A DNA stretch of 64,000 bases from Turneriella parva DSM 21527 (GTDB taxonomy: Bacteria; Spirochaetota; Leptospiria; Turneriellales; Turneriellaceae), in contig NC_018020.1 in assembly GCF_000266885.1 (NCBI RefSeq), forward strand, positions 2,108,001-2,172,000, given 5' to 3'. Of this stretch, positions 32,892 through 45,287 are shown piece by piece (positions within the stretch are counted from its first letter, which is position 1; each line of letters opens with the position of its first letter). The notes beneath the pieces were generated by a model. It was not told the origin of the DNA. It saw only the letters and a list, made by a program, of their open reading frames with translations, and did no database searches. The translations under genes were made by a program, and so were the position numbers.

Positions 32892-32933
32892 AGTGTACGC
32901 AGATTTACCGGGGTCGCCCTTGATCGCGATCAA
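32892..32933 (-). promoter_or_regulatory. FNR/DNR-type promoter of nnrS, apparently leaderless
   Basis: Perfect box TTGATCGCGATCAA at 32920-32933, 22-nt spacer, then TACACT at 32892-32897. This is class II spacing (box centred at -41.5). Counting from the -10, +1 falls on the A of the nnrS ATG. The box overlaps the end of the upstream SCO gene. Confidence 0.75.
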
Positions 32934-33544: not shown

Positions 33545-34287
33545 TATTTATCCTTGGCACACCGGAAGCCGAGGTTATTGCCGGTGTAATTTCCTTTTAG
33601 AGAGCTGCGCATTCCATAGCGCATGTAGGTTGCATAATTGCGCAAGTCATTGCCCGACAGGGCTGTGGCTCCGCAAAATAGATTGGATTCGGTATCGGTA
33701 TCGGAGCGCGAATCACCCGTCACGGTGGAAGAGTTGAAATCGTCGACCCATTCCCAGATGAGACCGTGCAGATCGTTTACACCCTGGGGGCTGACGAGCC
33801 CCGAACCTATGAGCCCCCCGTTCAACTGGTCGTTGGGTTTGCCAAACCATGCGAGAATTTTTGCGTTCACTTCGCTCTGCTGGTCCCATTTGTTGTAGGT
33901 CGCGGCGAATTCCCATTCGTAGAGCGTCGGCAGGCGTTTGCCCTGCGCGGCGCAATAGGCCCTGGCGGCATACCACGACACCTGGGTCATGACGGTATGC
34001 GCCGAGGGTACAGCGAGATTGACGGTCTTGAGATAACCCTGATCAGCTTTGATCGGTGCCGTATTCGCCTTTGACCACGCCGGGTTGGCAGCGACAAAAG
34101 CGGCAAAATCGGCGACACTCACAGGAAAACGATCGAGCTGAAACGATTTGACCCTGACGGCCTTTTCTTCTTTGCGAAGGTCAAAGGGCCGAAAGGTGCC
34201 TGTCGGGATACGCACCATTGGCGTATCCCGGGCAAAAAGAGCGGCGCAGCAAACAGCCAGGCCTAGAATTGTGAGTCTGCGTCTCAG
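33544..34287 (-). CDS. nirV: NirV-like formylglycine-generating-enzyme-fold protein
   Basis: About 247 residues. There is no ATG near the expected start: CTG at 34287 overlaps the nirK stop (CTGA), has GGAG 6 nt upstream and directly yields a signal peptide ([19 protein letters not shown]). An ATG at 34347 would overlap nirK by 64 bp. The SUMF1/FGE fold is clear: [20 protein letters not shown] at the start, [40 protein letters not shown], and NLGFRCAKD at the end. nirV is found beside nirK in many denitrifiers; its function is unsettled. Confidence 0.8.
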
Positions 34288-35699
34288 TGCACGCTCCGCT
34301 GAGCAGCGACTTCTTGCGGCGTGACTACTCCGCCCGAGTTGCCCCATGCATTCAGCACAAAGGTCAGAACATTGGCGACGTCTTCGTCACTGAGGCCCAA
34401 TGCAGGCATCACGCTGTCATACTTCTCTTTGTTGACAACGATCGGGCCGCTCTTGCCTTCGAGTAAGACTCTGATCGCACGGACTTTGTCTGCGTTCAGG
34501 TAATCAGACTTAGCCAACGGGGGAAAAGCCTTGGGCACGCCCTGGCCTTCGTTCATGTGGCAAGCCTGACAGGTTGTGCCATAGATGCGCTTGCCTTCGG
34601 CGATTCGCTCCTCTTTCGATTTCGCAACCGCCTGGGTTGCCTTTTCAGCTGGCATTGTCTGCGTCGCGCCGCCTTCGCCGAGGTAAACAGTGTCGGCCTG
34701 CTTGCCCGAGTAGATCGCCGCGTTTTCAGGGCCTTCTGCCTTCAAAATGCCCAGCGCTCCCTTGTTGAATGTGCGAAAGATCGAGTGATCGACGATGACA
34801 TAGTTGCCGGGTACATCCATCTTGAAGTCGACGATCGCAGAGCCGCCAGCAGGTACGAGTGTGGTCTGAACGTTCTTCTGGTTCTTTTCTGTGCCACCTT
34901 CGGTATAGACCTGATCGAATATTTCACCGATCACGTGAAACGACGATACCAGATTCGGTCCGCCATTGCCGACGTAGAGGCGCACAGTTTCACCGACTTT
35001 GGTTTTCAGTGCCTTGTCGCCGGTCATAGAGCCGACCGATCCGTTAAATACAACATATTCAGGTCTCTCATCGAGAGCCTTATTCATGTCGAAAGGCTGC
35101 AGGCCTGTCTGGCCGTTCTTACCCTTGGTGTAGAATTCTGACTGCATCACATAGAATTCTTTGTCGACTTTGGGCAATCCACCTTTGGGTTCGACGAGAA
35201 TGAGGCCGTACATTCCATTGGCGATGTGCATACCGACCGGGGCTGTCGCGCAGTGGTAGACATAGAGCCCCGGATTGATAGCCTTGAACGAGAACTTTGA
35301 GCTATGGCCAGGTGATGTCAGCGACGCCGCGGCGCCGCCACCCGGGCCTGTGACAGCGTGCAGGTCGATATTGTGTGGCATTTTGCTCGTGGGGTGGTTA
35401 GACAGCGTGAATTCAACATCGTCGCCTTCGCGCACCCGAATCATCGGGCCGGGAACCGTGCCGCCGAATGTCCAGAAGGTGTATTCGACACCATCGGCGA
35501 GCCTGCCCTTCAGCTCTTTGGTCTCGAGTTCGACAATGACCTTGGCATTACCGCTGCGGTCGATGCGCGGTGGCACTTCGGGTGCATGCGTCAATACAGC
35601 CTTTTCGGTCTTTGTGCCGCAGGCAAGAAACATGGGAGCCAGTAGAGCCAGAGCTATTAATGCGGCTCCCCGGTGTAATGTGTGTTTTGTGGTTTTCAT
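34284..35699 (-). CDS. nirK: Copper nitrite reductase NirK with C-terminal cytochrome c domain
   Basis: 471 residues from ATG 35699 (AGGAGG 5 nt upstream). Lipoprotein-type signal peptide ending FLAC. Type-1 and type-2 copper motifs: [15 protein letters not shown] (catalytic Asp and His), [20 protein letters not shown] (Cys, His, Met ligands), and [11 protein letters not shown] (catalytic His). From about 365 a class I cytochrome c domain follows with CQACH and a later Met (SVMPALG), so this is a haem-tethered NirK. It reduces nitrite to NO in the periplasm. It leads nirK-nirV-SCO, under a class II FNR-type promoter. Confidence 0.95.
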
Positions 35700-35722
35700 A
35701 AATCCTCCTGAACTTCGCATTA

Positions 35723-35764
35723 ATTATAGACCAATTTATCCTTAATGTCTTTGACTTGAATCAA
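35723..35764 (-). promoter_or_regulatory. FNR/DNR-type class II promoter of nirK
   Basis: On the minus strand the box TTGATTCAAGTCAA (35751-35764) is followed by 22 nt and a perfect TATAAT (35723-35728). The predicted +1 is about 35716, leaving a 17-nt leader with AGGAGG. The same box lies upstream of the divergent regulator gene and may also control it. Confidence 0.85.
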
Positions 35765-35824
35765 GACTATGCTCAAATATTTGTGTTCGGCGGGCTGGTT
35801 AACGCAATCATGGTGGTGTTCACT

Positions 35825-36442
35825 ATGAATTCGATCGATTTCACAGGCCTGTCTGGGCCCAGCGCAGAAAAGCTGCGCGAACTGGCCCACTACCGCCGTT
35901 TCAGCCGCAATGAGGCGGTCTTTCGCGAGGGCGACCGCTATACTGGCCCTTACCTCGTCGCCGAAGGACAATTCAAAATATTCATGCTCGGTGACGAAGG
36001 CAAAGAGTCGATTATGCATATTTTTCGCGTCGGCGAGTTGATCGCAGGGGGCCCGATGCTTCTTGGGGGTGCCGGATATCCGGCGTATTGCTCAGCGCTG
36101 TCTGACGGGTGCCTGATCGCCTTTGAATATGATCGTCTGAAGAAACTCATCGTGACCGACGAAGTCATCAATACTTTTTTCGTGAGCAAGAGCGTGATGC
36201 TGATTCCGCGCTTGAAAGAGAAGATCGAAAATTTGACCCTTAAGAACGCCGAGGGCCGTATCTATGCATACCTCAAGTCGCTGGGTGCCGATAAGGGGCC
36301 GATTGAACTCGACGTGCCGAAGAACCAAATTGCGGCGCTGCTCGACCTGACGCCCGAATCGGTGAGCAGGGTGTGCAACCAACTCGTCGCCAAAGGGTTA
36401 CTCGAAACGAACGGCAAGACATACCGCCTGCGCGAACAATAA
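35825..36442 (+). CDS. Crp/Fnr-family regulator (DNR-like), divergent from nirK
   Basis: 205 residues from ATG 35825 (ATG 35810 also possible; the open frame to 35756 begins inside the FNR box). Sensor barrel (about 10-115) and winged HTH (about 140-205) with recognition helix TPESVSRVCNQLV, again E-x-x-S-R, predicted to read TTGAY half-sites. It lacks an N-terminal cysteine cluster. Its placement opposite nirK across an FNR-type box makes it the best candidate for the NO-responsive activator of this island, possibly autoregulated. Confidence 0.88.
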   Translation: MNSIDFTGLSGPSAEKLRELAHYRRFSRNEAVFREGDRYTGPYLVAEGQFKIFMLGDEGKESIMHIFRVGELIAGGPMLLGGAGYPAYCSALSDGCLIAFEYDRLKKLIVTDEVINTFFVSKSVMLIPRLKEKIENLTLKNAEGRIYAYLKSLGADKGPIELDVPKNQIAALLDLTPESVSRVCNQLVAKGLLETNGKTYRLREQ

Positions 36443-36470: not shown

Positions 36471-36842
36471 CTAAACTGCAGCAGGTTTTTCGTCAATTTC
36501 TGACAAGAGTCTCGTGTAAACCCCTTCTATCTCTTCTGCCGAGAACAAATGCTGCTTCTTTTTTTCGACCCCAAAGCCTGAGAGTACAAAGTGGCGCTCG
36601 GCGACAACGCCATGGCGGGCGAGGCAGTGTGCAACGCACTTGAGGGCGCAACCATCGAGCGCGATAATCGGCCTGCCACTTTTCGCGGTGCGTACGAGTG
36701 GCTGCACACCCCCCCCGACACCGGCGATGCACGACATCTCGGCGCGGCCTTCGCGGTCGAGGCGGAGCGCAATGGAGTTCGCCATCTGTGCGGCCGACGA
36801 GCAGCCTGAACACGAGTAGACTAGCGGTAGCTCAGGCTGCAT
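36471..36842 (-). CDS. DGC-domain putative zinc/Fe-S-binding protein
   Basis: 123 residues from ATG 36842. Cysteine motifs YSCSGCSSAAQMAN near the start, EMSCIAGVGGG, and LDGCALKCVAHCL give the DGC-type pattern seen in small proteins of respiratory and denitrification clusters (annotated as putative zinc-binding). Six or more conserved cysteines could ligate zinc or an iron-sulfur cluster. It is the last gene of the oxidoreductase operon, overlapping ctaA by 11 bp. Confidence 0.7.
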   Translation of the reverse strand: MQPELPLVYSCSGCSSAAQMANSIALRLDREGRAEMSCIAGVGGGVQPLVRTAKSGRPIIALDGCALKCVAHCLARHGVVAERHFVLSGFGVEKKKQHLFSAEEIEGVYTRLLSEIDEKPAAV

Positions 36843-37842
36843 GCGGTCTCCGCGCGAGCAGAAAGAGTGTTGCCGTAAAAAGAATGAGTGCATTCGCCTG
36901 GTGCAGGGCGCCCAGCGAAACGGGGACTGCCTTCAGCAGGGTGAAAACCCCGAGCAGAAACTGCAGCAAATATGCCATGACGATCCACGCCAGCGGGTGA
37001 TTTAGCGACACATTCTTGCGTTCGCGCCAAAGCTGCCAGAAAAAGAAAACTCCCAGTCCGTAAGCGAAGTTACGGTGTAAGAACTGCACCATGATTGGGT
37101 TGTCAGAAAAATTCGACAGCACCGGGGAAAATCCCAGCGCACCCTGCGGAAAATACTGCCCGTTCATGAGTGGAAACGTGTTATACATCTTTCCCGCCTT
37201 CAGCCCGGCCACGAGTGCCCCGCTTGCCATCATGACGAAGACCAGAATCACATTGGCCCAGGCGAATGCCCGTGAGCCCTGAACGCGGGGGCGCGTTTCG
37301 AGGCTCCAGGCAGTCATCAGCATCAGCGCATAGATCAGCACTGCGGTCATGAGGTGGCTTGTGAGGCGCAGGTGGCTGACGTGCGGGTCGTTCACGAGCC
37401 CACTTTTTACCATGTACCAACCGAGAACCCCCTGAAAACCACCGAGAGCGAAGATGACACCTAGCCTGAGCGCCAGTGGACGATCGATGCGTTTGCGCAC
37501 GAGAAACCAGAGAAACGGCAGAAGAAAAATAACACCGACCAGCCGGGCGAAGATGCGATGGATGAACTCCCACCAGAAAATATTCTTGAACTCGGGCAGC
37601 GTCATGGTGTGGTTCACGAGCCGGTACTCGGGTGTTGCCTTGTATTTTTCAAATTCAGCCTGCCACTCGGTTTCACCGATGGGCGGCACAACTCCGCTTA
37701 CCGGCTTCCATTCGACGATTGAGAGACCAGATCGCGTCAGCCGGGTGATGCCACCGATGACCACAATCGCAAAAACGACTGCAGCGCAGATATAGAGCCA
37801 GGCGGTTACAGGGCGAAGCGCAGCGCTACCTGTCACGCGCAT
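36832..37842 (-). CDS. ctaA: Haem A synthase CtaA/COX15
   Basis: 336 residues, eight membrane helices, with the CtaA/COX15 hallmarks GGITRLTRSGLSIVEWKPV, EFIHRIFARLVG, GGFQGVLGWYMVKSGL, HLTSHL-type RLTSHLMTAVL and VQFLHRNFAYGLG, which supply the four histidines. It oxidises the haem O methyl group to give haem A. Its presence in this operon implies that the adjacent haem-copper enzyme uses haem A; no haem O synthase (CtaB) is in the window. It overlaps the DUF3365 gene by 17 bp. Confidence 0.92.
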   Translation of the reverse strand: MRVTGSAALRPVTAWLYICAAVVFAIVVIGGITRLTRSGLSIVEWKPVSGVVPPIGETEWQAEFEKYKATPEYRLVNHTMTLPEFKNIFWWEFIHRIFARLVGVIFLLPFLWFLVRKRIDRPLALRLGVIFALGGFQGVLGWYMVKSGLVNDPHVSHLRLTSHLMTAVLIYALMLMTAWSLETRPRVQGSRAFAWANVILVFVMMASGALVAGLKAGKMYNTFPLMNGQYFPQGALGFSPVLSNFSDNPIMVQFLHRNFAYGLGVFFFWQLWRERKNVSLNHPLAWIVMAYLLQFLLGVFTLLKAVPVSLGALHQANALILFTATLFLLARRPHAA

Positions 37843-38593
37843 CGTCGATGATCCTTCTTATGGAGCGCCATTCTTCAGGCATTTTTTCGCTTTCGGGCAA
37901 GAGCACGGTCTTGTCGCTGTCATCTGCCATATCGCGCCGGTGGATAATCCCTTCGCTTTCAGCGGAAAAACGGCTCAATGGCCGCAGCACCCACCACCAA
38001 ACGGGTACGAGCAGGCCCAGCATGCAGACCACAAGCAGGCCAAAATTTTCCCAAAAAAGATCGAGGGTAAAGTAGCTGATGCGTGACTCACTCAGCGCGC
38101 TCAGGGGCAGACGCCTGATTGCCAGGCCGACAGGTTGACCGAGCGCAATCGCCTTGTTGTCGGCGCCCACGTGGCATGTCTGGCAGATTGGCTGTGCTTT
38201 CAGCGGGTAAGCGTATTCAATGAACTGGTCGGTTTGCCGAAAGGCTGCCTGCGCGCTCTGTAAGACCCTTCTCTCAAAATCATTCTGTGGCACACGGTCT
38301 TTGCGCACGCCAAACTGGCTGTTCAAAAAATCGCTGCGCCTGAGTTCAATCGGAATCGTTTTGTCGGCGCTGATAGCGTAAAGCGCCCGGCGCACATAAT
38401 CTTGATCGCCGTTGGCGGCAGTTACCACAACCCCGATAATCTTTTCGAAAGCGACCATGTCACGGTGAATCTGTTCTTCTACGCTGAGGCGCGTGAATCG
38501 CTCGGCGGCTGGCAGAAAGTAGAACTTGATGAAGAGCGAGGCCAGGGTGAGCACAGCCGTGACGGCGATCCATAAGCGTGTCGAGATTTTCAT
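37826..38593 (-). CDS. Membrane-anchored c-type haem protein with DUF3365-like sensor domain
   Basis: 255 residues: N-terminal membrane helix (about 6-27), periplasmic domain with one haem site CQTCH (about residues 137-141), a second membrane helix (about 186-206, FGLLVVCMLGLLVPVWWWVL) and a charged cytoplasmic tail. The periplasmic part resembles the Tll0287/DUF3365 haem-sensor fold. No kinase or receiver follows, so it is either a redox sensor stub or an electron-transfer protein. It is embedded between the 118-residue membrane gene (4-bp overlap) and ctaA. Confidence 0.7.
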   Translation of the reverse strand: MKISTRLWIAVTAVLTLASLFIKFYFLPAAERFTRLSVEEQIHRDMVAFEKIIGVVVTAANGDQDYVRRALYAISADKTIPIELRRSDFLNSQFGVRKDRVPQNDFERRVLQSAQAAFRQTDQFIEYAYPLKAQPICQTCHVGADNKAIALGQPVGLAIRRLPLSALSESRISYFTLDLFWENFGLLVVCMLGLLVPVWWWVLRPLSRFSAESEGIIHRRDMADDSDKTVLLPESEKMPEEWRSIRRIIDDARDR

Positions 38594-38946
38594 GCTGTTT
38601 TGTTGCTCCCTGTGTCATCTTCTTCGTCTTTGAACCCGCCCCCAATCCAGAAAGCGCCAAAGATCAGTGTGACCACCGAGCCAAAAAATAGTACGGAGAG
38701 AAAACTCATCGCCATCAGCGCCGAAAACATGTTGCGCGCACGGCGCATGCCGTATTCAAACTCCGTTTCTCCCGGCTTTTTTTCGCCTGTCCAGCCGCAG
38801 AATTCCTGCAGAGAAGAATAGCTGATGATTTCACCTCGGGTCTTGGCGCGCATCTCAAAGAAGAAATCCTTTATGCCGTTGGCGGCACTCAGCGCCCAGA
38901 GACCGATCAAAATGGCCATAAACGTGCCCTTGTTTCGTCTGATCAT
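38590..38946 (-). CDS. Small membrane protein of unknown function in the oxidoreductase operon
   Basis: 118 residues with two membrane helices (about 9-26 and 76-100) separated by a soluble segment EFCGWTGEKKPGETEFEYGM, and an acidic tail. I do not recognise the family. It overlaps its neighbours on both sides by 4 bp (ATGA-type), so it is firmly part of the operon. A structural or assembly subunit is possible. Confidence 0.7.
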   Translation of the reverse strand: MIRRNKGTFMAILIGLWALSAANGIKDFFFEMRAKTRGEIISYSSLQEFCGWTGEKKPGETEFEYGMRRARNMFSALMAMSFLSVLFFGSVVTLIFGAFWIGGGFKDEEDDTGSNKTA

Positions 38947-39572
38947 AGGCTCTTTTTTACCTCGTCGAAGAAGCGCGCCTTGTTGTTGTCGAGACCCCGA
39001 AATTCGCGCGTGACGCGTCCTTTGCGGTCGGTCACGATAAAGACATTGCTATGCGCATACACCAGCTTGCCGTCTATCGTCTTGTTGTACTGCAAGGCAT
39101 AGGTGTCGGCAAGGCGCCGAATGGTTTCGGCATCGCTCGTCAGCACCCGCCATTGATTGCCCGTAACGTGGTATCTGGTAAGAAAGTCTTTCAGCTGCTC
39201 GGGGTTGGCGCGGTGGTCTTCAAAGGTGAAAATAAGAAACAGGCCATCTTTGGCAAACTCAGGAGTGTCATTGTGAAATAGCCGCAGGTCATTCATAATC
39301 AGCGGGCATGACATGCCGCAATCTTTGAATACGAAGGTGGAAATGGTGTTGCGGTTTGCGAAATCACTCAGGCGAACCTGTTTGCCTTCTTGATCGATAA
39401 AGGTGCCTTCGAACTGCAGCAGGTTTGCGCGCTGGGGTTTCAGTTTGTCCTGCCAGAAGTCGCGGGGGCGATCGGCAGACATCGAATACCAGGCGATGTA
39501 GGCCGAGGCCACCATCAGCGAAGCAGCGATGCCGCGCAATATCCAGAGGCGTGTTGCCTTAGCGTCTTGCAT
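38943..39572 (-). CDS. SCO1/SenC-family protein (oxidase operon)
   Basis: 209 residues, one N-terminal membrane anchor (about 10-28) and a thioredoxin-like domain with C-x3-C as CGMSC (FKDCGMSCPLIM) and the downstream His in KLVYAHSNVF. Likely copper delivery to the CuA site of the subunit II encoded in the same operon. It differs clearly from the SCO gene in the nirK transcript, so each half of the island has its own chaperone. Confidence 0.87.
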   Translation of the reverse strand: MQDAKATRLWILRGIAASLMVASAYIAWYSMSADRPRDFWQDKLKPQRANLLQFEGTFIDQEGKQVRLSDFANRNTISTFVFKDCGMSCPLIMNDLRLFHNDTPEFAKDGLFLIFTFEDHRANPEQLKDFLTRYHVTGNQWRVLTSDAETIRRLADTYALQYNKTIDGKLVYAHSNVFIVTDRKGRVTREFRGLDNNKARFFDEVKKSL

Positions 39573-40230
39573 TGCGGCCCCTCATGAAGGTGACGATTTC
39601 TGCCTGATGCTGCAGCGCATCGGCTGCAATATCGGCATAGTTTGGTTTAAGGCTCTTTAGCTCTGGCAGATGAGCCTTCGCTGCTTCTGCCTGCTCGGCT
39701 GTGATGCGGTAGAGCACCAGATTGAAGAGCGCTGGCGGATATTCCCTGTTCAGCGAAACGGCGCGCTCAAAATCGGCTGCCGCTGCTGGGTTGTTTCCGG
39801 TGCGGCTATGCAGCAAAGCCCTTCGGAGAAACAACTGAGGCTGCATTGAAGCTGCGTTTTCGGCCATCTCGTAAAACTTCAGAGCGCGCGCGGTGTCGCC
39901 GGCTTCTTCAAAGCAAACACCCATCTGGAAAAGGTGCTTGTGGCGAATGCGCGGGTATTGGTTGATCGTGAGATCCGTCTTCTTCGACTCGAGGCAGTCT
40001 TGGGTGCGCAATTTGCGCTCGGTGATACGACGGCTGAAATTTTCGGCTTCGGTATGTGCTGCTGGGTCTTGCCGCGCGCGTTCAAGATAGTAGCGTGCGA
40101 GCTCGGTATTACCCGTGCTGTCAAGCTCTCGGGCCGCACGTAGGGAAAAGTTTTGTTCGTAGGCTTTCTCTGAGGCTGGTTTGCAGGCGGAAAGAAGCAA
40201 CAGCATAGGTAATAGTGCCGTGTAACGCAT
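39559..40230 (-). CDS. TPR lipoprotein
   Basis: 223 residues from ATG 40230 (AGGGAAAG upstream); the longer frame to 40413 is rejected because it overlaps the cytochrome b gene. Signal peptide with lipobox MLLLLSAC. It consists of about four to five TPR-like helix pairs (NTELARYYLERARQ, GVCFEEAGDTARALKFYEMA, AAADFERAVSLNREYPPALF). It may assist assembly of the respiratory complex in the periplasm; the inference rests on position only. Confidence 0.75.
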   Translation of the reverse strand: MRYTALLPMLLLLSACKPASEKAYEQNFSLRAARELDSTGNTELARYYLERARQDPAAHTEAENFSRRITERKLRTQDCLESKKTDLTINQYPRIRHKHLFQMGVCFEEAGDTARALKFYEMAENAASMQPQLFLRRALLHSRTGNNPAAAADFERAVSLNREYPPALFNLVLYRITAEQAEAAKAHLPELKSLKPNYADIAADALQHQAEIVTFMRGRNARR

Positions 40231-40231
40231 A

Positions 40232-42394
40232 TTAATCTTTCCCTGTCTCATTCTTTTGAGGCATCTGCAGAGTTCGCCTGAAAAGTTTCGCTTGGTTCGG
40301 TTCGTAATCGAGCAGCTTGACTTCTGCGGGCGAGAACTCCATTCTTTCAGCAAAGCTGATTTCTTTGCCGGTAGAACCAGTATCGCGTTCGTGAACCACA
40401 ACCTGGACCTCATGCGGTCCAGGTACGGTGTGTACTTTCATCATGACGTACGTAATGCCGTCGCGCTGAAACCCAGCAGGCCTGAAAGTGCGCCGTGACT
40501 GTTCTTGCCCGTCGATGCGCACGATGATGTCGAGATCGCGGCGTGCACGGCTGCAGTATTTTGAAGCGACGCTGTCGGCGGCCTGTTGCAGAATTCGCTC
40601 ACGCGCCTCGGGCGTCAGGTTCTCGAGTTTGACGAGTCCTGCCATGCGCTTGATCGCCTGCTCTCGTGCATCGGCAGGTATCTGTTCGGGCGAGCAGGTT
40701 TCTTTCTCGCTCTGGTAAAAGAAGTCGAGTCTGAGCAACGCGGTCGATTTCGATGCTTCAATGGCGCCGAACCTTCCCGATGAACCGAGATAAAACACCC
40801 AGACCGCCAGCGCAAAGACGAACGTGCCGACCGAAAACGAGCGTGCCCAATTTGATGGTTTGAGTAATGAAAACAGACGGTTCGGCAACGTATTCTGTGA
40901 CCTCACGATTTGTTGGAGCTCAGAAACAAACGAATGTTTCTGCTGTCCGTTAAAGCGGAAACCCAAAATCGGAAACTCCGCCGCAACCCGGCGGAAATTC
41001 GGCTTGCGCTTCAGCTCGATACGGTCCATCAGCCAGCGGTTGCCTTCGCGGTACCAGCAATCACCCTCGGGGCAGGCGCCGACGATAAGTCCTTTTGCAC
41101 CACCCGCACGGATTTTTTCTGTTTCGCTGACACCGAGTTTTCCGGTGCAGGGGGTGATCGCCAAAACGGTGCCAGCTTCGTAAGCTCTTAAAGCTCCGCC
41201 CTCTGCACTGAGGCCCAGCGAGTGTGCCCGGCCCTGGCAGACCAGGGTGACCCATTTGTCTTTTGCCTCAGACCAGTCGGGTTCGGCTTGGGTGGCGCCA
41301 GGTTTTACATGCGTGATTGCATCGTAGGTGCATGAACCCGCGCAGATGCCGCACCCAGAACAGAGGTCGGTGTCGATGGATACAAGGTATTTATGGTGCG
41401 TTTGATTGGCGTTGCCAATCAAACTCGCGCGTTCAACCATATGCATCGCCTGGTAAGGGCAGTCGATTGCGCACAGGCCGCAGCCGGTACACTTTTCGGC
41501 AATGACGCCGGCTGTCACAATTTCGCGCTTTTTTACCAGCCATGGCATGGCCATGAGCAGCAGAAAACCCGCGGCCATGGTGCTCCAGGCTATCCAGGCA
41601 TAACGGGTTTCGAAGATTGCTGCGAAAAACAGATAGAACCAGTCGGGCTGCAAGAGCTCGGGCATTTTTTCTGCCTCGGCTTTGCCCACCATATTGATCG
41701 GAAACACGAGCGTGTAGAGTATGAGCACGCCGAGAAACGCGAGCGTGAGCTTGCGCGGTGGAAACAGTTTCGCACGCGAGACGCGCAAAAGATGCACGAA
41801 GAGCAGCAGAATAAAGAGCAGGGGAATGAACAGGTGCACGATGAGTACAACCCACATGATCCATTTGCCGAGCAGTGCAGGCGATGAAAACGAACGCGGC
41901 AGGGTATCGCCGAATACCTTGAGGCCTGCGAGCAGCTCAGAAGTCTTTTCCATTACAAAACGCGCATTGGCGTCGAGCGGTAGTATATAACCGGTCAGAC
42001 CCTGCACGAGCATAAAACCGAGAATGATAAGGCCGCTCACCCAGGCGAGGGTACGATGGTTCTGGAATTTTTCTTCGAAGAGCATGCGTGCCATGTGCAA
42101 CAGCACGAAAAACATCATCGCGTCGGCGGCGTAGCGGTGCAGGTTGCGGATAAACCGCCCCAACAGCGCGCTTTCGGTCATGTATTTGACCGATTCATAA
42201 CTCTGGTGCACCGACATGTTGTAGTAGATGAACATGAAGAGGCCGGTGATCAGTAGTACAAAGAGTAAGATTACAGGCAAAGCCCCGAGGTAATAGAGAA
42301 AGTTGCCCTTCTCGGTAAAGACGTGGTTAAACGCACTGTCGGCGCGGTGGAATAAAGAAAGAAAAGACTGGAAGATTGGGCGGCGAAATTTCAT
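40232..42394 (-). CDS. Cytochrome b / two [4Fe-4S] / FlpD-like fusion protein (putative quinol dehydrogenase)
   Basis: 720 residues. The N-terminal cytochrome b6-like part (1-290) has four haem ligands at H86, H100, H187 and H201 (14-residue spacing in both helices) and a PDWFY motif at 250-254 resembling the Qo-site PEWY. Two ferredoxin motifs follow: C302/C305/C308/C312 and C345/C348/C351/C355. Residues about 383-470 resemble the MvhD/FlpD iron-sulfur domain (LVCQGRA, TPCTGK, GACPEGDC; C386, C416, C441, C446). A further membrane helix (about 522-541) leads to a periplasmic domain (about 550-720). No Rieske protein or cytochrome c1 is encoded nearby. I infer electron transfer from quinol towards the haem-copper enzyme or the reverse. 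Confidence 0.8.
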   Translation of the reverse strand: MKFRRPIFQSFLSLFHRADSAFNHVFTEKGNFLYYLGALPVILLFVLLITGLFMFIYYNMSVHQSYESVKYMTESALLGRFIRNLHRYAADAMMFFVLLHMARMLFEEKFQNHRTLAWVSGLIILGFMLVQGLTGYILPLDANARFVMEKTSELLAGLKVFGDTLPRSFSSPALLGKWIMWVVLIVHLFIPLLFILLLFVHLLRVSRAKLFPPRKLTLAFLGVLILYTLVFPINMVGKAEAEKMPELLQPDWFYLFFAAIFETRYAWIAWSTMAAGFLLLMAMPWLVKKREIVTAGVIAEKCTGCGLCAIDCPYQAMHMVERASLIGNANQTHHKYLVSIDTDLCSGCGICAGSCTYDAITHVKPGATQAEPDWSEAKDKWVTLVCQGRAHSLGLSAEGGALRAYEAGTVLAITPCTGKLGVSETEKIRAGGAKGLIVGACPEGDCWYREGNRWLMDRIELKRKPNFRRVAAEFPILGFRFNGQQKHSFVSELQQIVRSQNTLPNRLFSLLKPSNWARSFSVGTFVFALAVWVFYLGSSGRFGAIEASKSTALLRLDFFYQSEKETCSPEQIPADAREQAIKRMAGLVKLENLTPEARERILQQAADSVASKYCSRARRDLDIIVRIDGQEQSRRTFRPAGFQRDGITYVMMKVHTVPGPHEVQVVVHERDTGSTGKEISFAERMEFSPAEVKLLDYEPNQAKLFRRTLQMPQKNETGKD
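41400..41424. repeat. In-frame inverted repeat between the two ferredoxin motifs
   Basis: Arms of 11 nt (GTTTGATTGGC and its complement) around GTT. It lies within the cytochrome b/FeS fusion gene and encodes about residues 324-331 in the linker between the two four-cysteine motifs. Confidence 0.6.
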
Positions 42395-42445: not shown

Positions 42446-42604
42446 TTAGTAAACAGTCCAGTTCTTGCTCAGGGCCAGCCACTGTGTGAAGTAGACGACC
42501 ATGAACCAGGCGAGAAAGATGAGCGCGAGCACGAAGCTGCCCGGCGCATGCATCTTTTCTTTTTGGTTCTGCCCAGCAGAACCAGTATTATTGTTATCAG
42601 ACAT
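42446..42604 (-). CDS. 52-residue single-helix oxidase subunit
   Basis: Short gene from ATG 42604 to TAA 42446, with AGGAGG 4-5 nt upstream. The product begins MSDNNNTGSAGQNQKEK and has one membrane helix (about 22-40, SFVLALIFLAWFMVVYF) ending in TQWLALSKNWTVY. The size, position after subunit I and single helix match the small subunit (IIa/IV type) of B-family haem-copper oxidases. The strong ribosome-binding site supports it being real. Confidence 0.8.
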   Translation of the reverse strand: MSDNNNTGSAGQNQKEKMHAPGSFVLALIFLAWFMVVYFTQWLALSKNWTVY

Positions 42605-42654: not shown

Positions 42655-44217
42655 TCAGCCATTTGCGTGCTGCGGTGAATAAGGTTCAATCTGCGACGGT
42701 ATTTTTTTACCGAAGAAGACCGACAGCACCGCTACGTAGATGAACATCAAGAGGCCCGTGAACGCCAGAATTGCACCGATACCGACCAGTGCGAGCATTG
42801 TGTACATCGCCGGGTCAAAGGGTACCTGGATCACCGCGTTCTGGAACGTCACGTCCCAGTGGCGGCGGGGGGCACCCATGACACCCGCAAAGTGCATACC
42901 GGTTGCAAACATCATCACGCCGAAACCGAAGACGTATGGTTGGTATTTCGCCAGCTTTTCGCCGATCAGCTTACGCTGCAGTACGAGCGGAATGACATAA
43001 TAGGTGAGAGCCATAAACGCGAGAGTGGTACCACCCACAACTGTCATGTGAAAGTGGCCGGGAACACGCATGTTGTTGTGTGAAAGCATGTTCAGCTGTT
43101 CAACAGAGAGAATGATACCAGTCACGCCGCCGAAGAAGCCGAAGATCACCATCGAGAGCGCCATGCCTGAGAAACCGGGCTGGCCCCACGGAGCATTCGT
43201 CAGCCACTGGAAGAGGCCGCGGGTATACCCTTTCGCGCGCTGTGCCGTTTCAACCGCCGCCGGAATCGAGAACGCGTGGATCATCGAACCAATGGTCGCA
43301 GCGTAGAACAGGTAGCTCGTGTTGAAGATACGGTAGGTTGCCGAAAGCCCCGGGTCAACAAGGTTGTGGTGAATCGAACCGAGGTTGATGCCGAGCAGAT
43401 AGAGCACGAATGCCCAACGGCACATTTTCTGGTTCACGGGTTTGGCGCCAGTGGTCAGATTTGCGAGCAGGTACCAGATTGAAACCATCGCTGCGAGGTT
43501 GAGCTGCTGCGCCGAGTGGCCAAAGCCCCAAAACGAAATGCGAAAGTACTCGGGGTCGACACGATCGATAATGCCGATCGACCAGAGAAACGCCGGGATA
43601 AAAGCGGCTGCACCTGAGACGAGGGTAAAGATCGCGATAATGACCGCGACGAGAATACCGAACGTAAAGAGCGGCAGGCTGCCTTTATGCCATCCTTCTC
43701 TTTTGGCAATGACGAGTGCATAAAGAAACTGAAAGCAGTTAATCAGCGCCCCGACGGCAAAGAGAATGATACCGAGATAGAACGCCGGGTGTGCTTTCAG
43801 GGGCGGATACGCCGTGAACATCACGTCGGCCTTACCCATGAAAACAACCACCTCGACCATGATCGCACCGGTAATCATCAGAATGTAGTTGAACCATCCG
43901 AGTTTGACGCCGGGATAGCGCGCACCAAGAATAGTCTGCGCTGCAAAGATGACGCCTGCCATTTCAAAGAACACGATCCAGAACACGAGCATGGTAATGC
44001 CGTGTGCCGTCACGAAACGGTAAAAGAGATCTTGCGGCAAAAGGTGTACTGCAGGCCAACGGGTGAGCGCGATCAGCAGAGCGAGAACTCCCCCGACGAG
44101 CAGAAACACCACGGCCGAGACGGCGTTGATCCAGATGAGGCGCTGCGCCGGCATATGGACCTTGAGTCCGGTCGTCGGGCAGGTTCTGAATTGGTTGGTA
44201 ATATCAGCTATACTCAT
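42655..44217 (-). CDS. Haem-copper oxidoreductase subunit I lacking the active-site tyrosine (NO-reductase candidate)
   Basis: 520 residues, about 13 membrane helices. Metal ligands: low-spin haem H72 (TAHG) and H390; CuB H234, H283, H284 (GSIHHN); high-spin haem H388 (PGHFHMT). In oxygen-reducing A- and B-type enzymes the CuB His is followed at +4 by a cross-linked Tyr (GHPxxY); here it is GHSAQQ, with Q238 at that position. The absence of Tyr is the hallmark of the NO-reducing members of the superfamily. Together with nirK, nnrS and hemerythrins this suggests a CuA-containing NO reductase rather than an oxidase. It starts at ATG 44217, 1 bp after subunit II. Confidence 0.85.
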   Translation of the reverse strand: MSIADITNQFRTCPTTGLKVHMPAQRLIWINAVSAVVFLLVGGVLALLIALTRWPAVHLLPQDLFYRFVTAHGITMLVFWIVFFEMAGVIFAAQTILGARYPGVKLGWFNYILMITGAIMVEVVVFMGKADVMFTAYPPLKAHPAFYLGIILFAVGALINCFQFLYALVIAKREGWHKGSLPLFTFGILVAVIIAIFTLVSGAAAFIPAFLWSIGIIDRVDPEYFRISFWGFGHSAQQLNLAAMVSIWYLLANLTTGAKPVNQKMCRWAFVLYLLGINLGSIHHNLVDPGLSATYRIFNTSYLFYAATIGSMIHAFSIPAAVETAQRAKGYTRGLFQWLTNAPWGQPGFSGMALSMVIFGFFGGVTGIILSVEQLNMLSHNNMRVPGHFHMTVVGGTTLAFMALTYYVIPLVLQRKLIGEKLAKYQPYVFGFGVMMFATGMHFAGVMGAPRRHWDVTFQNAVIQVPFDPAMYTMLALVGIGAILAFTGLLMFIYVAVLSVFFGKKIPSQIEPYSPQHANG

Positions 44218-44218
44218 G

Positions 44219-44797
44219 TTAATCCTCCACTATCACCTGGCCAACCATGGTGTCATGGCCGAACTTCTCGCCTGCAAACATGCAGTACTCGTTACAGATG
44301 AGAAAAAATTTGCCCGTTTCGTTCGGACTCATCGTGATCACAAAGCTGTAATCGGGCAGAATCTGAATGTTAAGATTCTGTGGTTGCAGCGAAAAACCGT
44401 GCTGGTAGTCGAGCGATGACATGTGAATGCGGTAGGTCTTGTTCTTCTTCAGCACGAGCGCCGGGCGAAACTGCCATGCCTGCGCCACGAGAAAGGTGTC
44501 GCCGTTCTCTTTTGTGGGGGCATCGACGAGCGGAATGCCGCCAGGTTTGCCATTATGGGTGATTATTTCACCTTTGGCGTCTTTGCGCTGGTACTTGGCG
44601 ATGAACTTATCGACGACTTCGCGGTATTCTTCAGGATTCGTCTTATAGGTTTCTGAAGAAATGTTCTGGTTCCAGAAGTGGCCGAGCGGCATCATGACGA
44701 ACATCACAATACCCCACGCAATCGAGATGTATAGCCAGATGCGCTCTTCGCGGTTAAATGGCTCCCACCAGTTTTTCTTGGGCGTTTCTAAAGGCAT
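44219..44797 (-). CDS. Haem-copper oxidoreductase subunit II with CuA site
   Basis: 192 residues, one N-terminal membrane helix (about 20-40) and a periplasmic cupredoxin domain. CuA ligands: H133 (DYQHGFSLQ), C168 and C172 (ICNEYC), H181 and M184 (GHDTM). The spacing C172 to H181 is 8 residues instead of the usual 3, caused by an insert (MFAGEKF), so the CuA loop is altered. It accepts electrons from a periplasmic donor such as a cytochrome c or the cytochrome b fusion. It lies between the 66-residue membrane gene and subunit I. Confidence 0.88.
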   Translation of the reverse strand: MPLETPKKNWWEPFNREERIWLYISIAWGIVMFVMMPLGHFWNQNISSETYKTNPEEYREVVDKFIAKYQRKDAKGEIITHNGKPGGIPLVDAPTKENGDTFLVAQAWQFRPALVLKKNKTYRIHMSSLDYQHGFSLQPQNLNIQILPDYSFVITMSPNETGKFFLICNEYCMFAGEKFGHDTMVGQVIVED

Positions 44798-44805
44798 GTT
44801 GGCTC

Positions 44806-45006
44806 CTATTTGCCCGGCAAAAGATATTGCTGGTTACTCTGCGCCAGATAATCTTTCAACTGGGTGTTATTGAATACGAAAATCTCGAGCAAGCCCCAAC
44901 CGAGGTAGAATATCCCCGGAAAAGCCATGCCGATGATCAGCAGAAACCAGATGTTGTCAAATGCCCTCTGGCCGAGCGTGCGTTTTTGCTTGTCTTCGTG
45001 ATCCAT
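44806..45006 (-). CDS. 66-residue single-helix membrane protein, first gene of the oxidoreductase operon
   Basis: From ATG 45006, preceded by GGAGG; an ATG at 45018 would add four residues. Product MDHEDKQKRTLGQRAFDNIW followed by one membrane helix (about 21-43, FLLIIGMAFPGIFYLGWGLLEIF). No metal motif. Probably an accessory subunit of the haem-copper complex. The longer open frame to 45078 runs into the regulatory region and is rejected. Confidence 0.7.
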   Translation of the reverse strand: MDHEDKQKRTLGQRAFDNIWFLLIIGMAFPGIFYLGWGLLEIFVFNNTQLKDYLAQSNQQYLLPGK

Positions 45007-45096: not shown

Positions 45097-45110
45097 TTGA
45101 TATAAGTCAA
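45097..45110 (-). promoter_or_regulatory. FNR/DNR-type box upstream of the haem-copper operon
   Basis: TTGACTTATATCAA on the minus strand, 91 bp upstream of ATG 45006. At the class II distance the -10 is weak (TAGGCG, or GATAGG two bases closer), so activation should depend strongly on the regulator. Confidence 0.65.
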
Positions 45111-45245: not shown

Positions 45246-45287
45246 TTGACCTTTATCAATGCCATAGTTCCTGATATGGTCTATATC
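45246..45287 (+). promoter_or_regulatory. FNR/DNR-type class II promoter of the tandem carbonic anhydrase gene
   Basis: Box TTGACCTTTATCAA (45246-45259), 22-nt spacer, -10 TATATC (45282-45287). Predicted +1 at about 45294 gives a 17-nt leader with AGGAGGG, the same geometry as nirK. Confidence 0.8.

Follow-up and report, generated by a model that had tools for sequence, protein, structure and literature searches.

A cytochrome b-ferredoxin-MvhD fusion protein as the probable Rieske-free electron supply of one clade of eNOR-type nitric-oxide reductases

In the stretch of 64,000 nucleotides from Turneriella parva that we analysed (the window), one gene encodes a membrane-bound cytochrome b continued by two [4Fe-4S] motifs and an MvhD/FlpD domain, and it lies next to the genes of a haem-copper enzyme. 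We conclude that this fusion protein is probably a dedicated Rieske-free quinol-oxidising module which forms the private electron supply of one clade of eNOR-type nitric-oxide reductases. Whatever its cytoplasmic branch does, it is likely that the protein acts as the electron-transfer partner feeding eNOR from quinol, and we are more certain of this donor role than of the way electrons flow in the cytoplasmic branch.

The gene for the fusion protein (positions 40232-42394, minus strand) is an intact, uninterrupted reading frame of 720 codons in a host genome of 4,409,302 bases in two contigs. Pfam matches lie in a single frame and comprise Cytochrome_B at residues 31-205 (E 3.8e-24), a Fer4 pair at 299-361 and FlpD at 399-461, the latter exceeding the gathering score. 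Based on these profiles, conservation and a structure model, we divided the protein, all on the minus strand, into cytochrome b helices A-F (residues 1-291, positions 41522-42394; PF00033, Foldseek, conservation and helix limits), two [4Fe-4S] ferredoxin motifs with C302/305/308/312 and C345/348/351/355 (residues 295-365, 41300-41512; Pfam and conservation), an MvhD/FlpD domain with the candidate [2Fe-2S] ligands C386, C416, C441 and C446 (residues 376-480, 40955-41269; PF02662, MvhD profile and conservation), a seventh transmembrane helix, TM7 (residues 516-539, 40778-40849; model helix, helix order and loop charge) and a periplasmic beta-sandwich (residues 540-720, 40235-40777). The haem-ligand pairs are H86/H187 for bL and H100/H201 for bH, and a Qo-like motif, PDWFY, is found at residues 250-254 in the ef loop of the cytochrome b part. 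Residues 290-461 match positions 567-729 of HdrA2 (NCBIfam NF040770), the FAD core of which is missing; furthermore, the Fe-S profile of the fusion matches the C-terminal ferredoxin domain of HdrA in solved structures, and the MvhD part matches solved MvhD chains of Hdr/Mvh complexes with a best E of 3.7e-15 in profile comparison. We dismissed a frameshift or an assembly artefact because the reading frame is intact and the same domain order recurs in single reading frames of about 640-760 amino acids in dozens of unrelated genomes.

To assess conservation, 78 relatives with 23-66% identity to the window protein were aligned. The four haem histidines and the eight ferredoxin cysteines are invariant in 78/78, with the columns of H86 and C308/C312 slightly biased, since the two patterns used to fetch the sequences cover them. 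The MvhD-type cysteines C386 and C416 are likewise kept in all 78 relatives and C441 in 77, while C446 is kept in 68 and replaced in 10; within PDWFY, D251 is found in 77, W252 in 70 and Y254 in 71 of the 78. The AlphaFold2 model calculated from the 78 sequences (pLDDT 90.8, pTM 0.89) consists of cytochrome b-like transmembrane helices A-F, the Fe-S/MvhD block at residues 287-515, TM7 at 516-539 and the beta-domain at 540-720. Because Foldseek aligned about 290 residues, helices E-F included, to the cytochrome b of bc1 complexes, the membrane part is regarded as a cytochrome b with helices A-F. Helix directions and the standard topology of cytochrome b would place bL and the DWFY motif on the periplasmic (P) side and bH on the N side, beside the cytoplasmic Fe-S/MvhD block, and TM7 is predicted to bring the chain back to the periplasm. 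Cytochrome c domains mature only outside the cytoplasm, and since five copies from Chloroflexota end in such a domain, we place the C-terminus in the periplasm. An earlier note on this DNA, made from the sequence alone, had described one polypeptide joining cytochrome b, two [4Fe-4S] clusters and an FlpD/MvhD-like domain, with the same haem pairs, a quinone-reactive PDWFY module, eight ferredoxin cysteines and an additional transmembrane helix with a periplasmic domain. This description agrees with the single 720-codon frame and the Pfam order, its ligands and motif are borne out by the alignment, its additional helix and domain reappear in the model as TM7 and the beta-domain, and the FeS domains, whose orientation the note had wished to see checked, are predicted to face the cytoplasm.

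The beta-domain differs from the remainder of the protein. No Cys, His or Met that could serve as a cofactor ligand is conserved in it among the relatives, and Foldseek gave no significant match in the PDB; on these grounds we rejected a copper or haem site in this domain. In many Proteobacteria, Gemmatimonadota and others the transmembrane helix and beta-domain are encoded separately. Because the domain lacks conserved ligands and a PDB match and often has its own gene, we take cytochrome b, ferredoxin and MvhD together as the putative functional core, while the beta-domain would most plausibly serve in docking.

The genes around the fusion lie on the minus strand and begin with a 66-aa membrane protein without Pfam match, the operon's first gene (44806-45006), followed by haem-copper subunit II (44219-44797) and subunit I (42655-44217). 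Subunit I (PF00115, alignment and tree) carries GHSAQQ, HH and GHFH motifs, with a Gln at the place of the cross-linked active-site Tyr, and GHxxQQ is also found in relatives. Subunit II has the CuA ligands H133, C168, E170, C172, H181 and M184, a set kept without exception in the 10 subunits II that were aligned. The CuA loop of the Turneriella group is longer by five residues between the second Cys and the His (CNEYCMFAGEKFGHDTM versus CNEFCGIGHHTM), and the lengthened loop also occurs at loci L023 and L013. The replacement of the Tyr by Gln in subunit I is the published criterion for eNOR (PMC8756737), by which the neighbour is classified as a nitric-oxide reductase of the eNOR family; the earlier note had already recognised a haem-copper subunit lacking the Tyr. 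The cupredoxin subunit II agrees with this assignment. For an eNOR of another clade, NO reductase activity has been reported (as cited in PMC11388526). Between subunit I and the fusion lies a 52-aa protein with a single transmembrane helix, accessory-subunit-like by its translation and without Pfam match (42446-42604).

Directly after the fusion stop, the ATG at 40230 starts a TPR lipoprotein (39559-40230; Pfam), followed by an SCO1/SenC copper chaperone (38943-39572; Pfam), a 118-aa membrane protein kept in related operons (38590-38946), a Tll0287-like membrane protein with one CxxCH (37826-38593; sequence and Pfam) and the CtaA haem A synthase (36832-37842; Pfam), all on the minus strand. 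The TPR lipoprotein, the 118-aa protein and the Tll0287-like c-haem protein recur in the loci of relatives. Further along the same strand is a NirK copper nitrite reductase fused to cytochrome c (34284-35720; TIGR02376 E 2.4e-114, PF00034), and a Crp/Fnr-type regulator (35756-36442, plus strand; PF00027 and PF13545) is divergent from it. The segment 33544-40230 also holds genes for a DGC-domain protein and an FGE-sulfatase-like protein beside nirK. An exact search for TTGAY-N4-ATCAA gave four sites in the window (32920-32933, 35751-35764, 45097-45110 and 45246-45259), three of which flank the nirK/eNOR cluster; the FNR/Dnr-type box TTGACTTATATCAA (45097-45110, minus strand) lies upstream of the eNOR operon, and such a box also precedes subunit II at loci L023, L024, L012 and L064. 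The nirK neighbour and the FNR-type boxes would fit NO reduction by the window eNOR. Because eNOR stands together with SCO, CtaA, NirK-cytochrome c, a Crp/Fnr regulator and FNR-type boxes, we read the locus as a NirK denitrification cluster.

The fusion is widespread. Hundreds of bacterial genomes and some archaeal ones encode relatives of it, mostly next to one eNOR type, and a pattern-based scan of GTDB genomes yielded at least 578 confirmed loci, 80 of which were fetched. The latter derive from Aquificota, Nitrospirota, Nitrospinota, Myxococcota, Verrucomicrobiota, Gemmatimonadota, Calditrichota, Balneolota, Pseudomonadota, Chloroflexota and one archaeon. A recognisable eNOR subunit I is present in 57 of the 80 fetched stretches; of the others, many end at contig ends, and L063 has the variant motif AHSTQQ. 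Some fusion loci with good flanks, L030, L043 and L090 among them, have no eNOR within 9 kb, the L043 fusion adjoining two cd1-type nitrite reductases instead. Two tandem copies of the cytochrome b-Fe-S-MvhD gene per cluster, whose products share about 26-32% identity with the window protein, were seen at L059, L061, L063, L064, L076, L084, L092, L097 and other loci. The fusion/eNOR clusters may also contain a haem-copper homologue of 460-500 amino acids (L014:12160-13584, L026:2943-4355 and about 40 others), which keeps the haem histidines (HYH and the N-terminal His) and the active-site GH (GGGHxLQ) and is without the CuB HH pair (41 loci by motif count); no such homologue was seen in the T. 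parva genome.

Within Spirochaetota, a search baited with eNOR found 16 of 296 genomes, and the full-length fusion was present in the same 16 and in one fragmented assembly (Fisher 1.5e-25, phylogeny uncorrected). In the Rhodothermus class, to which the Balneolaceae locus L065 belongs, 23 of 196 genomes encode eNOR, and in 14 of these 23 loci the fusion lies within a few kb of it. In the other nine eNOR genomes no fusion was found, either at the locus or elsewhere in the genome, and their eNORs form one clade in the subunit I tree (SH-aLRT 100). One of the nine is presumably Rhodothermus marinus DSM 4252, the source of the characterised eNOR. Judging from this distribution, the fusion is the dedicated partner of one eNOR clade, and the Rhodothermus-type clade is without it.

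The respiratory background of T. parva bears on the donor role as well. We found no bc1-type Rieske protein in the window operon or in the whole genome, the sole PF00355 match being a small two-domain protein without membrane anchor, so that the absence of a Rieske gene remarked on in the earlier note extends from the neighbourhood to the entire host. Searches of the genome likewise gave no second PF00033 cytochrome b and no HdrA. T. parva does encode an alternative complex III-type NrfD protein and two haem-copper oxidases besides eNOR, and because of these, aerobic respiration does not seem to need the fusion, which would belong with NO reduction. The same NrfD protein counts against the donor reading, since cytochrome c might in principle supply eNOR with electrons. 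A search with the HdrA2 model in 12 other fusion genomes found the fusion's own tail as the only match in 7, and HdrA as an obligatory partner of the MvhD domain is thereby ruled out. With no HdrA in the host or in these seven genomes, the cytoplasmic partner that accepts or donates the electrons would be a general carrier, for instance ferredoxin.

In Chloroflexota the fusion stands beside two different enzymes. We found 16 fusion loci in 12 of 400 genomes. Five of the copies carry a C-terminal cytochrome c and adjoin a subunit I with GHPLVY, i.e. with the Tyr, and a CuA subunit II; by these features the partner is an O2-reductase. Beside the 11 copies without cytochrome c, eNOR was seen in 10 cases and the contig ends early in one, and four genomes hold one copy of each version. 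Since the cytochrome c copies go with the O2-reductase and the plain ones with eNOR, each haem-copper enzyme has its own version of the fusion. In the O2-reductase version the c-haem stands in place of the c1 of bc1, and it marks the C-terminal end of the fusion as the putative electron outlet. In one Obscuribacterales locus (L054, 2212-10782) MvhD has a gene of its own beside that for the cytochrome b-ferredoxin protein. Their neighbours encode a cbb3-type oxidase, cytochromes c, a Rieske protein and a cytochrome b of the ordinary kind, and the cluster may specify a bc complex containing two distinct cytochromes b. Across the eNOR, O2-reductase and L054 settings, the gene neighbourhoods indicate that the module always accompanies a strongly oxidising terminal reductase. 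Thus the earlier suggestion that the fusion could replace bc1 as electron donor to the adjacent oxidoreductase is supported as to the donor role, by domain-wide conservation, one-to-one pairing and the cytochrome c version beside an O2-reductase, and is made specific as to the partner, which the note had left open and which we assign to eNOR.

We propose that quinol would be oxidised at the periplasmic Qo site of the cytochrome b part and that electrons would pass to CuA of subunit II, in a complex docked with the help of the beta-domain, and from CuA on to NO in subunit I. The second electron would move from bL to bH, cross the two [4Fe-4S] clusters and reach the cluster of MvhD on the cytoplasmic side, where the branch would hand low-potential electrons to a soluble carrier, pulled by the strongly exergonic reduction of NO. 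A coupling of quinol oxidation to a cytoplasmic low-potential carrier had also been suggested in the earlier note. Because its 12 cysteines are almost invariant, the cytoplasmic branch most likely works, and low-potential electron delivery would be its likeliest use. The anatomy of the fusion is compatible with splitting the electrons of quinol between high- and low-potential acceptors; a true quinone-based bifurcation, with one electron going to CuA (in Chloroflexota via the fused cytochrome c) and one to a cytoplasmic carrier, is put forward tentatively, as a possibility with the odds against it. Several observations count against the overall scheme, namely that no cofactor between the Qo site and CuA is visible in the eNOR version, which has neither Rieske nor c1, that C446 is replaced in some relatives, that HdrA is missing from the host, that the eNOR operon encodes no cytoplasmic flavoprotein and that fusion loci without eNOR exist.

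A plain quinol:CuA oxidoreductase with a structural or regulatory Fe-S/MvhD tail is a sub-case included in our estimate for the donor role. The operon has no gene for a dedicated cytoplasmic partner and HdrA was seen neither in the host nor in 7 of the 12 other fusion genomes, yet 12 cysteines near-invariant over 78 sequences of 23-66% identity go beyond structural need, and we consider this version unlikely. Somewhat less probable still is a reverse flow, in which reduced ferredoxin or NAD(P)H in the cytoplasm would donate electrons to the MvhD/ferredoxin tail, which would pass them via bH and bL to quinone or directly to eNOR; the protein would then be a reductase of the ferredoxin:NO or ferredoxin:quinone type and might serve, for instance, in NO detoxification. 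In known complexes, electrons do travel between low-potential partners through MvhD and 8Fe-ferredoxin domains (PMC5861303), NO reduction would pull the electrons, and the second gene downstream of the L012 copy encodes a hemerythrin. A pure wire from the cytoplasm to CuA would, however, have no need of the conserved periplasmic Qo-like motif, and the O2-reductase version carries its cytochrome c on the periplasmic side, as in bc1 complexes. The weakest alternative, a membrane reductase supplying electrons for copper or haem insertion into eNOR and not for turnover, is suggested by the SCO, CtaA or CyoE genes around the fusion and by CcoG/FixG, since CcoG-type proteins also unite transmembrane helices, two [4Fe-4S] motifs and a periplasmic beta-domain, but we judge it improbable, as copper reduction requires no diheme cytochrome b with a Qo-like motif, the Rhodothermus eNOR clade manages without the fusion and the cytochrome c on the O2-reductase version fits catalysis better.

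Many bacteria produce N2O with eNOR-type nitric-oxide reductases, which have received little study. Should the majority of these enzymes require the fusion, the characterised Rhodothermus enzyme is the exception, and one has to reconsider how N2O production is supplied with electrons, how much energy it yields and how sensitive it is to inhibitors. A functioning cytoplasmic branch would be the quinone-based equivalent of flavin bifurcation and would allow the proposal for anammox bacteria, discussed below, to be tested directly; if bifurcation is true, respiration of NO or O2 would provide reduced ferredoxin or NAD(P)H with no need for reverse complex I. Moreover, the fusion is a good marker gene for its eNOR clade, which annotation pipelines often label cytochrome c oxidase.

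We found no functional account of the fusion in the open full-text literature, and a 2024 PNAS paper on eNOR may mention it. The enzyme itself has been described as consisting of two subunits, and the Rhodothermus-type clade has no fusion gene. The domains given for a Chloroflexi protein, RME88945.1, are cytochrome b6, DMSOR-beta-like Fe-S and FlpD (Table A3 in PMC8756737). It appears there as a cytochrome-domain homologue whose partner and function are undiscussed; it is probably the cytochrome c-bearing O2-reductase version. With this entry and the loci of our scan, the domain order for which the earlier note knew of no described enzyme is not unique. Like bc1 and b6f complexes, the fusion has a diheme cytochrome b that includes helices E-F and carries DWFY, a motif resembling PEWY, as seen in Foldseek and HMM matches. 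Unlike them, it lacks Rieske and helices G-H and has two [4Fe-4S] motifs and MvhD attached on the cytoplasmic side; the eNOR version also has no c1 or f, cytochrome c being found among fusions only in the O2-reductase version of Chloroflexota. With HdrA2/MvhD it shares a contiguous ferredoxin and MvhD tail of the same order with conserved cysteines, whereas the FAD-binding bifurcating core of HdrA2 is replaced by a quinone-reactive cytochrome b. For the Rieske/cytochrome b complexes of the anammox bacterium Kuenenia, quinol bifurcation towards NAD(P)H has been proposed (PMC12954380), which is the closest published idea to the second branch outlined here. Those complexes also join a cytochrome b to a cytoplasmic redox module, and they use Rieske, multihaem c subunits and a separate NAD(P) enzyme where the fusion is one Rieske-free chain tied to NO reductase. 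We regard the fusion as a variant of the cytochrome b quinol oxidoreductases with a real chance of a new mechanism.
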